Assembly (NCBI RefSeq): GCF_943193025.1
Contig: NZ_CALPCQ010000001.1
Location: 62,001-126,000 of the forward strand
DNA from: Lactobacillus agrestimuris
Lineage (GTDB): Bacteria; Bacillota; Bacilli; Lactobacillales; Lactobacillaceae
Length of the DNA: 64,000 nucleotides
Direction of reading: 5' to 3'
Each line of letters starts with the position of its first letter. Position 1 is the first letter of the stretch. Below the pieces are notes generated by a model. It was not told where the DNA came from, did not search any database, and saw only the letters and a list, made by a program, of their open reading frames with translations. Both the position numbers and the translations under genes were made by a program. Of the stretch, positions 54,351 to 57,113 are shown in pieces.

Positions 54351-54370
54351 GTGAAATGAAGGTTTTTATT

Positions 54371-55312
54371 GTGCAAGTAATACATTTAACTTATCCAGTT
54401 GAAAATAAAATCACCGATGGAAAAGTTGTTTTGGCCTTAGGCTTCTTTGATGGAGTTCACTTAGGTCATCAACATCTTATTTCTGTTGCTAAAAAAGAAG
54501 CGGAGAAGAAAGGCTTACCATTGATGGTACTTACTTTTGATAAACATCCGAGTGAAGTTTATGCTAAAAATCATGATTTTATCTATATTGATAGTTTAGA
54601 TGAAAAAGTGCAAAAAATGTCTAAGTTAGGTGTCGACTATCTTGCTGTTTTAAAGTTTACTGATAGCTTTAGTAAAATATCTGGTGATGATTTTGTTGAT
54701 AATGTGATCATAAAATTACATGCTGCGACTGTAGTTGCTGGTTTTGATTATACATATGGTCAAAAGGACCAAGCAAATATGGATCATTTGCCAGAATTTG
54801 CAAAGGAAAGATTTAATATAATTAAAGTTCCAAAGCAAACATTTGAAGGAAAGAAAATTGGTTCAACCGAAATTAGAAAAGCAATTACTGAAGGTAAAAT
54901 GAATTTGGCTTATGATCTATTAGGCACTCACTATGTAATGAGTGGTATTGTAGGACATGGTAAGCGTAATGGTCATAAGCTAGGGTTTCCAACTGCCAAT
55001 TTAGAATGGGAGGGCAAGAAGGCCATTCCAAAAATTGGAGTTTATGCTACTAAGACAAAAGTTGGCGATAAATGGTATGAATCAATGACAAGTGTTGGAT
55101 ATAACATTACCATTAACACTGAAAGAAAGATTTATATCGAATCAAATATCTTTGATTTTGATAAAAATATTTATGGTCAACCAATTGAAATTAAATGGTA
55201 TAAATACACTCGCGGTGAAATCAAATTCGATAGTCTGGATGCTTTAAAGGATCAACTTGAAAAAGATCGGATTAAAATCAAAGAATATTTCAAACAGCAT
55301 GTTGAAAAATAA
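54371..55312 (+). CDS. ribF: Bifunctional riboflavin kinase / FAD synthetase
   Basis: Converts riboflavin to FMN and FMN to FAD. The product is 313 aa from the GTG at 54371, which has GAAGG 8 bases upstream and gives the usual N-terminus (V/MQVIHLTYP); an ATG at 54356 five codons earlier is the alternative. The N-terminal nucleotidyltransferase domain has LGFFDGVHLGHQHLI and GFDYTYGQ. The C-terminal flavokinase domain (from about 185) has GHGKRNGHKLGFPTANLEW and SVGYNITIN. Confidence 0.95.
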   Translation: MQVIHLTYPVENKITDGKVVLALGFFDGVHLGHQHLISVAKKEAEKKGLPLMVLTFDKHPSEVYAKNHDFIYIDSLDEKVQKMSKLGVDYLAVLKFTDSFSKISGDDFVDNVIIKLHAATVVAGFDYTYGQKDQANMDHLPEFAKERFNIIKVPKQTFEGKKIGSTEIRKAITEGKMNLAYDLLGTHYVMSGIVGHGKRNGHKLGFPTANLEWEGKKAIPKIGVYATKTKVGDKWYESMTSVGYNITINTERKIYIESNIFDFDKNIYGQPIEIKWYKYTRGEIKFDSLDALKDQLEKDRIKIKEYFKQHVEK

Positions 55313-55330
55313 TTTTAATCATGATAATCT
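55302..55330 (+). promoter_or_regulatory. Candidate promoter of the ABC-F leader
   Basis: TTGAAA (55302-55307), 17-bp spacer, TAATCT (55325-55330); an overlapping GATAAT is an alternative -10. The -35 lies in the last codons of ribF. Confidence 0.4.
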
Positions 55331-55362
55331 CTAGTTACTAATATAAAAAATAAGAAAGAGGG

Positions 55363-55468
55363 AGCGCCGTTGCGTATTTAATTTTGCAAAATGAACATAG
55401 TCAAATAAGTTGTTGTTTTATGACGGAGAGACTATGCGCTTTGGCAAGATTAAATATAGGCGCTTTTT
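55363..55468 (+). ncRNA. Long hairpin leader of the ABC-F gene (attenuator, part 1)
   Basis: A rod-like structure from nested complementary segments: 55363-55368 with 55459-55464 (6 bp), 55375-55387 with 55444-55456 (13 bp, one G-U), and 55396-55402 with 55430-55436 (7 bp). The last 3' arm runs into TTTTT, so it can terminate by itself. A GGAG sits in the terminal loop and an ATG in the inner stem. Confidence 0.7.
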
Positions 55469-55526
55469 AACTTCATTAGAAGGAGTCTATGCTTGTTCAA
55501 AGTGTAGACTCTTTTTTGTGAGGTGA
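55434..55526 (+). CDS. Upstream ORF (30 aa) in the ABC-F leader
   Basis: ATG at 55434, 5 bases after GGAG (55425-55428). It encodes MRFGKIKYRRFLTSLEGV then YACSKCRLFFVR, and stops at TGA 55524-55526, four bases before the ABC-F ATG. The frame covers the 3' arms of the first hairpin and the whole second terminator, so ribosome position on it must affect both. Probably a regulatory leader peptide. Two shorter frames (55391-55408 and 55420-55470) overlap and lack an RBS. Confidence 0.5.
   Translation: MRFGKIKYRRFLTSLEGVYACSKCRLFFVR
55483..55517 (+). terminator. Terminator directly upstream of the ABC-F start (attenuator, part 2)
   Basis: Seven-bp perfect stem (55483-55489 and 55505-55511) followed by six T, ending 13 bases before the ATG. 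Confidence 0.8.
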
Positions 55527-55530
55527 TTCC

Positions 55531-57042
55531 ATGAGTAATATTAGAATCAAAAACTTATCTTTTGGATACGAAGACAGTAGTGATAAAATTTTTGATAATT
55601 TAAATCTTAACTTAGATAGTAGTTGGAAGTTAGGTTTAGTTGGTAGAAATGGTCGTGGTAAGACTACCTTCTTAAACTTATTAAGGGCGAAATTATCTGG
55701 CACTGGAAAAATTGAAACCAAGTTAACATTTTCTTACTTTCCAATTGAAATTGATAATCCTGATAATATAACTTTGTATGAATTGCAAGAAAAGGCCAAC
55801 TTTGAGCAATGGGAGCTTGAGCGAGAATTGAATTTAATGGCAACAGATCCTGAGTTGCTTTGGCAACCTTTTAATACGCTTAGTGGTGGTGAACAGACGA
55901 AAGTACTTTTGGCTTTGTCTTTTGTTGATCAAGACAATTTTCCTTTAATTGATGAGCCAACTAATCACTTAGATGAGGCTAGTCGTAAACAGATAGCTAA
56001 CTATTTGAAAAATCATAATAAGGGCTATATTGTCGTTAGTCACGATCGCGATTTCCTAAATCGTGTTGCTGATCATATTCTCGCAATTGAAAATGGCGAA
56101 ATTCATTTGTATCAAGGTAACTATGCTAGTTATGAAGATACCAAAAATAAGCGTGATGAATTTAGTGCTGCTAAGAATAATAAATTAAAGAGTGAAATTA
56201 CTTCTTTGAATACCAGTCGTCAAAGAGTGAGGGGATATTCTGAAAAAGCGGAAAGTAAGAAGAATGCAAAAACTCATAAAAACGAAATTCATTCCAACTT
56301 GGATAAAGGATTTTTGGGTCATAAAGCAGCAAAAATGATGCAAAAGTCCAAAAACTTGGAGCAAAGAATGGATAAGAAGATCAAAGCAAAACAAGGTTTA
56401 ATGACTAATATCGAGGATGTACCGGAGTTAAATATTAATTTCCAAGAAAATTACCATCAAACTTTACTCGAAATTAAGGACTTGCATTTGTCAGTTGATG
56501 ATAAAACGTTATTCTCTAATCTTAACTTGCTTGTTAAAAATCGTGGAGTGATTGCCCTAGAAGGGAAGAACGGTAGTGGAAAGTCAACTTTACTTAAAGT
56601 GATTATGAATAAGTCAACGAATGCAAGTTATACTGGTAAGATTCAATTAACTAATGGTTTGAAAATTTCATACTTACCACAGGATTTCACTGAATATACT
56701 GGAACATTAAAAGAATTTTCTGAAAATCAAAAAATCTCTTACGAAGAATTACTTAATAGCCTAAAGAAAATGGGATTTCCGAGATCTAGCTTTAATACTA
56801 AGATCGAAGAAATGAGTATGGGTCAACAAAAGAGAGTAGCCATTGCTAAGTCATTAGTTGAAAAAGCAGATCTCTATCTTTGGGATGAACCGGCTAACTA
56901 TTTAGATGTCTTTAATCAAGATCAGTTAATTAAACTAATTAAGGAAAATCAACCGGCAATGATCTTAGTAGAGCATGACAAATACTTTATTGATCAAGTT
57001 GCAAGTCAGCAAGTTCATTTGAAAAAAATCAAAAATATTTAG
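55531..57042 (+). CDS. ABC-F ribosomal protection protein, Lsa-like
   Basis: A soluble tandem-ATPase ABC-F protein of 503 aa without membrane segments. NBD1 has GRNGRGKTT (38-46), LSGGEQTKV and LIDEPTNHLD. The interdomain linker (about 215-300) contains KGFLGHKAAKMMQKSKNLEQ. NBD2 has GKNGSGKST, MSMGQQKR and WDEPANYLDVFNQDQL. The linker motif and the WDEP.NYLDVFNQ string closely resemble Lsa(A)-type proteins, which displace lincosamides, streptogramin A and pleuromutilins from the ribosome. Function here is inferred from this similarity. RBS GAGGTG. Preceded by a two-terminator leader with an upstream ORF. Confidence 0.9.
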   Translation: MSNIRIKNLSFGYEDSSDKIFDNLNLNLDSSWKLGLVGRNGRGKTTFLNLLRAKLSGTGKIETKLTFSYFPIEIDNPDNITLYELQEKANFEQWELERELNLMATDPELLWQPFNTLSGGEQTKVLLALSFVDQDNFPLIDEPTNHLDEASRKQIANYLKNHNKGYIVVSHDRDFLNRVADHILAIENGEIHLYQGNYASYEDTKNKRDEFSAAKNNKLKSEITSLNTSRQRVRGYSEKAESKKNAKTHKNEIHSNLDKGFLGHKAAKMMQKSKNLEQRMDKKIKAKQGLMTNIEDVPELNINFQENYHQTLLEIKDLHLSVDDKTLFSNLNLLVKNRGVIALEGKNGSGKSTLLKVIMNKSTNASYTGKIQLTNGLKISYLPQDFTEYTGTLKEFSENQKISYEELLNSLKKMGFPRSSFNTKIEEMSMGQQKRVAIAKSLVEKADLYLWDEPANYLDVFNQDQLIKLIKENQPAMILVEHDKYFIDQVASQQVHLKKIKNI

Positions 57043-57086: not shown

Positions 57087-57113
57087 TTAGCACCTGATAA
57101 GTTTGAGTGCTAA
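57087..57113 (+). promoter_or_regulatory. CIRCE operator (HrcA binding site)
   Basis: TTAGCACCT-N9-GAGTGCTAA, one base pair away from the consensus TTAGCACTC-N9-GAGTGCTAA arrangement in the left arm's last two bases. It lies between the -10 and the hrcA start. Confidence 0.93.

Follow-up and report, generated by a model that had tools for sequence, protein, structure and literature searches.

The locus and the elements of its leader

The DNA analysed here (the window) is a 64,000-nt stretch of Lactobacillus agrestimuris (GCF_943193025.1, contig NZ_CALPCQ010000001.1, positions 62,001-126,000), and all coordinates below are window-based. At the locus of interest, ribF (54356-55312) is followed by a leader, an ABC-F gene (55531-57042) and then hrcA. 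The predicted ABC-F product reached the cut-off of the NCBIfam ribosomal protection-like ABC-F profile NF000355 (463.4 bits; cut-off 380) and fell below that of the Lsa profile NF000167 (635.6 bits; cut-off 750). Because of the latter score the gene is called "Lsa-like", a label that agrees with the initial annotation of this DNA. An inverted repeat before hrcA (TTAGCACCT...GAGTGCTAA, 57087-57113) is presumably CIRCE-like, and a half of this kind (TTAGCACTC) overlaps the ABC-F stop codon as well. The features discussed below were as follows (the basis of each is given in parentheses):

55302-55328, + strand: candidate promoter, TTGAAA (55302-55307), 15-nt spacer and GATAAT (55323-55328), overlapping the 3' end of ribF (sequence reading)
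55355-55369, + strand: Shine-Dalgarno region of uORF1, AAAGAGGGAGCGCCG, doubling as the basal 5' arm of hairpin 1 (sequence; similar in relatives)
55370-55381, + strand: uORF1, TTG CGT ATT TAA, Met-Arg-Ile-stop, the proposed sensor (sequence; leader comparison)
55359-55468, + strand: hairpin 1, anti-antiterminator and proposed terminator 1 (folding, covariation, U-runs)
55434-55526, + strand: 30-codon ORF whose ATG forms part of the hairpin 1 inner stem, unlikely to function as a uORF (sequence, leader comparison)
55437-55504, + strand: predicted antiterminator, 55437-55444/55497-55504, 55445-55448/55492-55495, 55455-55461/55485-55491 and 55463-55470/55476-55483 (fold with RNA exposed to 55508)
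55478-55517, + strand: hairpin 2, or terminator 2, 55478-55494/55500-55516 with T6 to 55517 (folding, covariation)
55519-55526, + strand: ABC-F Shine-Dalgarno, within GTGAGGTGA (sequence)
55531-57042, + strand: Lsa-like ribosomal-protection ABC-F ATPase gene, 503 aa (ORF list, NCBIfam profiles)

The candidate promoter was absent from the list produced by an automated scan; TTGAAA...TGATA elements resembling it were seen by eye in close relatives (e.g. L032, L033). Transcription would start downstream of it, at about 55335. The 181-nt leader was predicted to fold at -60.4 kcal/mol, compared with -35.0 kcal/mol (sd 3.8) for 200 dinucleotide shuffles, none of which was as low (z -6.7), and hairpin 2 alone gave a z of -6.4 against shuffles. 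Hairpin 1 is made up of three stems (55359-55368/55459-55468, 55374-55387/55444-55457 and 55396-55402/55430-55436), and in the window fold the TTG of uORF1 falls within an unpaired five-base internal-loop strand (55369-55373). At the base of this hairpin the Shine-Dalgarno sequence of uORF1 pairs with a C/T-rich strand that continues into T, and the T5 at 55464-55468 merges with the hairpin base. The T6 of hairpin 2 ends at 55517, 13 bases ahead of the ABC-F ATG at 55531. The initial annotation had described both structures, a nested hairpin ending in T5 and a second hairpin with T6 placed 13 bases before the ATG, and both were recovered here with stems spanning 55359-55468 and 55478-55516. 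Neither was listed by a simple terminator scan of the window, probably because both hairpins have an A-rich 5' strand that pairs with the U-run. Hairpin 2 with its T6 is a predicted intrinsic terminator lying between uORF1 and the gene, and uORF1, which the initial annotation did not list, is a short ORF with a Shine-Dalgarno sequence and is predicted to be translated.

The leader and its upstream ORFs among relatives

The ABC-F gene was present in 44 of 75 same-genus genomes (protein search, E up to 1e-80), Lactobacillus colini being among the named neighbours in the genome scan. Up to 400 bases of upstream sequence were taken per ABC-F gene, and 47 leaders were chosen by hand at Lactobacillus loci where a leader could be recognised; removal of three exact duplicates left the 44 distinct leaders that are counted below. 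Loci outside this set are L031 (contig end), L040, L042 and L059 (lacking this leader), L009 and L012 (on the contigs of L030 and L055), the other L010-L029 loci and L077-L082 (distant homologues), and L002-L008 and L086 (other ABC proteins). Alignment A1 holds 38 of the 44 leaders (without L035, L047, L065, L074, L075 and L076), A2 is a plain MAFFT alignment of 25 leaders, and A4 consists of the 38 together with L101 and L104. A further alignment, A3, which was the first covariance-model alignment, was set aside from the counts as it had antisense matches mixed in, probably because the hairpin is near-palindromic.

Leader searches used a covariance model, R1. Combined with the protein search, it placed the leader in 36 of the 75 genus genomes and ABC-F in 44, with both in 35; nine of the 44 genus genomes with ABC-F had no leader match to R1. 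At family level, R1 matched 23 of 397 genomes, 19 of them Lactobacillus. R1 also gave weak hits (E 0.001-0.006) to one other genus, in three of its genomes; these were set aside, with no ABC-F among the closed ORFs of at least 60 aa in the two that were opened. The Lactobacillus ABC-F copies L040, L042 and L059 (67-70% identity) are without such a leader, and inspection by eye revealed none upstream of an lsa(E) copy or of an ABC-F gene on an Enterococcus gilvus plasmid. A related gene was found in 136 plasmid records; three of these were searched with R1, and the leader was present in all three (Ligilactobacillus salivarius, Limosilactobacillus reuteri and Lactobacillus amylovorus; 127.6 bits).

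The position of the leader directly behind ribF would also suit another account, in which the hairpins are ordinary ribF terminators with no regulatory role. The same leader, however, stands ahead of ABC-F copies for which no ribF was found upstream, including the three plasmid copies, and a conserved uORF1 together with the alternative pairing described below argues against plain ribF terminators; we consider this account very improbable.

Several arrangements of the leader were also recorded. The plasmid leaders (L117, L118 and L119; pig and dog sources) lie at 1303-1431 and score the same as genome contigs L034/L035, and one of the three copies has an IS3 transposase gene upstream. In G227, which belongs to another genus, the leader lies ∼0.7 kb before ABC-F (L101, 1501-2330), with no same-strand ORF of at least 60 aa in between. 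In G038 an orphan leader (L104, 1301-1660) sits between ribF and hrcA, where ABC-F is missing; it retains a two-codon uORF, both hairpins and a Shine-Dalgarno-like sequence, followed by the apparent last bases of ABC-F. In at least six species the ABC-F gene occurs as two or three paralogues, and a separate version of the leader accompanies each of them (L048/L061, L041/L062, L051/L067, L043/L064/L066, L046/L065 and L039/L060). In G004, G019 and G025 (L083-L085) the ABC-F frame was matched only in pieces or with stops, and the leader is still recognisable.

In relatives the leader has a Shine-Dalgarno-like element (GAAAGAAGG or similar) and, after about seven bases, an NTG codon, a second codon that is mostly CGT, one further codon and a stop. 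Exactly three codons make up uORF1 in 40 of the 44 distinct leaders (the others have two, six, six and seven), and its start codon is TTG in 42 and GTG in two; because the search for the start combined the pattern NTGC[GT][TC] with a Shine-Dalgarno-like match, the method itself accounts for part of the conservation of those six bases, though not for the position of the stop. The encoded peptide is Met-Arg-Ile in the window and Met-Arg-Leu, Met-Arg-Phe or Met-Arg-Asn elsewhere, with Met-Leu-Leu in L050. Folding predicts the uORF1 start to be paired in many relatives. Outside these counts, short ORFs of the same style were seen by eye in more distant homologues (ATG CGT TTT TAA in L077; ATG CGT AAC TAA in L082; TTG AAA ATT TAA in the Lactococcus locus L011). 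A leader that is long, conserved and structured could in principle be a ligand-binding riboswitch or another translation-independent RNA element. The conserved segment of its 5' arm nevertheless reads as a Shine-Dalgarno sequence, a start codon and a short ORF, and no Rfam family reached its gathering threshold in the whole window (best sub-threshold E for the leader, 0.075), which makes a translation-independent element extremely improbable in our estimation.

The initial annotation had assigned the sensing role to the 30-codon ORF, proposing that ribosomes stalled on it change which hairpin forms. As it had reported, this ORF has a GGAG (55425-55428), starts inside the first hairpin and ends with a TGA at 55526, 4 bases ahead of the gene, all of which can be read directly; the ORF list also contains a longer in-frame form beginning at TTG 55410. 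The GGAG and its spacing are good, the triplet at this position is ATG or GTG in 35 of the 38 aligned leaders (24 and 11, respectively), and 32 of the 44 leaders have a short ORF there, three to six codons long and typically Met-His-Phe, as counted by A1 column in 38 leaders and by motif in the other six. Yet the triplet is TTG in one aligned leader, ATA in one and GTA in one, such that the start is lost in 2 of 38, and the ORF is not conserved, its length ranging from 3 to 39 codons and its end point varying. Only five of the 44 ORFs end within 10 bases of the gene or enter it (the window (L001), L038, L074, L076 and L083), and the window owes its 30-codon length to having one T fewer than its relatives. 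Moreover, the ATG is part of the inner stem of hairpin 1, where pairing alone could explain its conservation, and a modelled ribosome footprint on ATG 55434 leaves both terminators in place (terminator 1 0.97, terminator 2 0.99) with no antiterminator in the window. The 30-codon ORF as sensor is probably wrong, and stalling there as the cause of a change in hairpins seems to us quite improbable.

At A1 columns 101-113, many species encode Met/Val-His-Phe followed by a stop that may be TGA, TAG or TAA. Conservation of this ORF is probably structural, and a second short uORF at the ATG 55434 position is possible. In L083 the ORF at this position is open into the ABC-F start codon in frame and could extend the protein.

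Predicted terminators, covariation and alternative pairing

By simple thresholds, both terminators are present in 35 of the 44 leaders (two of these, L074 and L076, are doubtful since the T-run lies inside the stem), only the second in five and only the first in four (L055, L057, L058 and L072), and no leader has neither. In 36 of 44 leaders the basal duplex of hairpin 1 is better than its shuffled counterparts (p<0.05), a figure that is optimistic because the best site was selected. These data bear on whether hairpin 1 is a terminator at all or, in the manner of vmlR, an anti-antiterminator only, with hairpin 2 responsible for all termination. The latter is suggested by the AT-rich base of hairpin 1 in most leaders, whose U-run pairs with the A-rich 5' strand, by the lack of any run of four T after hairpin 1 in L069, L070, L071 and L073 (none was scored in L075), and by the window itself, where the tract is only T5 and the hairpin went unlisted by the terminator scan. 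A run of at least four T does follow hairpin 1 in 34 of the 38 aligned leaders, however, and four leaders have terminator 1 but no terminator 2 at threshold. We regard a purely anti-antiterminator hairpin 1 as a real possibility, albeit one that we would sooner bet against.

In shuffle tests uncorrected for relatedness, hairpin 2 had 96.2% of its cells paired, and both partners had changed in 10 of its 13 pairs, a level that none of 500 shuffles reached. For hairpin 1, two-sided changes affected 20 of 34 pairs on the covariance-model alignment (an alignment that favours structure), versus 11.5 in shuffles (0/500); on the plain MAFFT alignment A2 the signal was weak, with the covariation score matched by 119 of 500 shuffles and the two-sided pairs by 10 of 500. 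The antiterminator had 84.8% of cells paired and 36 two-sided cells versus 16.9 in shuffles (0/500), while its "pairs changed" and "pair types" were not above shuffles (157/500 and 65/500); antiterminator and hairpin 2 have their 3' strand in common. The compensatory stem changes for which the initial annotation had suggested looking were in this way found in hairpin 1 (on the structure-fitted alignment), hairpin 2 and the antiterminator. From the plain MAFFT alignment, RNAalifold retrieved no more than hairpin 2 and the inner stem of hairpin 1, and the structures were therefore entered by hand.

The most informative single pair is 113-219 of A1, since its partners fall outside the stems of the two hairpins: column 113 forms a bulge in hairpin 1, and column 219 belongs to the loop of hairpin 2. 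It forms in 34 of 38 leaders (AT 21, GT 6, GC 4, TA 2, TG 1), with a permutation p of 0.00025 that is likewise uncorrected for relatedness. The exceptions are L054, L055, L057 and L072, three of which are without terminator 2 at threshold; L058, also without terminator 2 at threshold, does form the pair.

Folding of the window leader as free RNA exposed to 55517 gave probabilities of 0.97 for terminator 1, 0.99 for terminator 2 and 0.00 for the antiterminator. With a ribosome footprint at the uORF1 start, terminator 1 dropped to 0.00 at every exposure step, and the antiterminator reached 0.86 at 55505, 0.62 at 55508, 0.43 at 55511, 0.60 at 55514 and 0.19 at 55517; terminator 2 remained at 0.00-0.29 with exposure to 55508-55514 and rose to 0.76 at 55517. 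When the ribosome was advanced to codon 3 of uORF1, terminator 2 was 0.25 at 55511 and 0.00 at 55517. The predicted pairing of the ABC-F Shine-Dalgarno sequence (0.88-1.00) was unchanged by the ribosome (footprint start set at 55371).

Stepwise folding was extended to 34 of the 38 aligned leaders, four being skipped for gaps. With the 3' arm partly exposed, the antiterminator exceeded 0.5 in two of the 34 leaders as free RNA versus 28 with the ribosome, and with the stem of terminator 2 just complete, in none versus 12 of 34. Once the whole of terminator 2 and its U-run were exposed, the antiterminator exceeded 0.5 at equilibrium in only 3 of 41 leaders with the ribosome at the uORF1 start. 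Covariation and stepwise folding are thus in favour of a mutually exclusive antiterminator and equilibrium folding is not. Since terminator 2 usually wins at equilibrium, the switch, if the model is right, must be kinetic; as modelled, it would require co-transcriptional kinetics or a ribosome that has advanced to codon 3.

A proposed attenuator and its known relatives

Based on these comparisons, we propose that the leader is a ribosome-sensing transcription attenuator in which uORF1 is the sensor, followed by two terminators and an antiterminator (probability roughly 0.8). Leader comparison and modelling thereby uphold the class of mechanism named in the initial annotation, ribosome-mediated attenuation, with the sensor moved away from the 30-codon ORF. 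Sequence comparison and folding support uORF1, both hairpins and the alternative pairing, with uORF1 predicted to lie inside a 5' hairpin that blocks the antiterminator; we infer use of the promoter, termination at either site, stalling, the drug classes and induction.

Without drug, ribosomes would translate and clear uORF1, allowing hairpin 1 to close, and RNA polymerase would stop at terminator 1 (∼55468) or, once past it, at terminator 2 (∼55517), ahead of the Shine-Dalgarno sequence of the gene. A drug acting at the peptidyl transferase centre would hold a ribosome on uORF1 and so keep the 5' arm of hairpin 1 covered, such that terminator 1 could not form and the 3' arm of the hairpin would be freed. 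As terminator 2 emerges, its two arms and its loop would pair with this freed arm, forming the antiterminator, and polymerase would enter the ABC-F gene, whose product would protect ribosomes.

A more specific form of this proposal, which we put forward tentatively and at slightly under even odds, is a two-checkpoint attenuator. Here, uORF1 and its Shine-Dalgarno sequence would be the 5' strand of a real terminator, and one stalled ribosome would disarm terminator 1 directly and terminator 2 by way of the antiterminator, with lineages having shed either checkpoint. If so, leaders with terminator 1 only would need no antiterminator. What each checkpoint does could readily be compared among natural leaders, which include some that carry both terminators and others that have just the first or just the second.

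The likely sensor thus moves to a three-codon uORF in a leader that occurs in about half of the Lactobacillus species examined (36/75) and that travels with the ABC-F gene on plasmids in three lactobacillus species. In these bacteria of food and gut, protection against lincosamides and pleuromutilins may depend on induction, and tests on uninduced cells may miss it.

In the open-licence literature we found no report of this leader in Lactobacillus, nor of tandem terminators before an ABC-F gene. Among described systems, Listeria lmo0919/rli53 is similar by description, being a lincomycin-dependent attenuator ahead of an ABC-F gene (PMC11550727 and PMC6310831). Clostridioides difficile cplR resembles the present leader in having a tripeptide Met-Arg-Ile uORF in a 5' hairpin and a terminator ahead of the ABC-F gene, and mutation of the start codon of that uORF showed it to be needed for induction by retapamulin and lincomycin. 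The two hairpins predicted for cplR comprise the uORF hairpin plus a single terminator that hides the Shine-Dalgarno sequence of the gene as well (PMC10201436), whereas the Lactobacillus leader has two terminator-like hairpins, a TTG start and a gene Shine-Dalgarno sequence whose predicted pairing is independent of the ribosome.

In Bacillus subtilis vmlR, a three-codon uORF (Met-Ile-Asn) likewise lies in an anti-antiterminator hairpin, namely in a bulge of SL-1, to which the TTG in the internal loop of the window is comparable; the terminator is SL-3, and the vmlR antiterminator keeps a hairpin at its apex. It differs by a pause hairpin (SL-2) and a Shine-Dalgarno-sequestering SL-4, and the vmlR text consulted (PMC9226507) does not present SL-1 as a terminator. 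Streptomyces coelicolor are5sc shares a TTG-started tripeptide uORF ahead of an ABC-F gene, which has been toeprinted and is inhibited by lincosamide, streptogramin A and pleuromutilin; it belongs to another phylum and another ABC-F subfamily, and its peptide is Met-Leu-Val (PMC12421871). A UUG start was accordingly rejected as a novelty.

The initial annotation had called the arrangement a distinct version of these attenuators. The uORF position that it described is confined to this species and a few others, and what is distinct is instead the tripeptide uORF within a terminator-like hairpin. Overall, the Lactobacillus leader looks to be built like those of cplR, vmlR and are5sc, and what looks new relative to known leaders is that the hairpin carrying the uORF is itself terminator-like, with a U-run in most species, giving tandem terminators.
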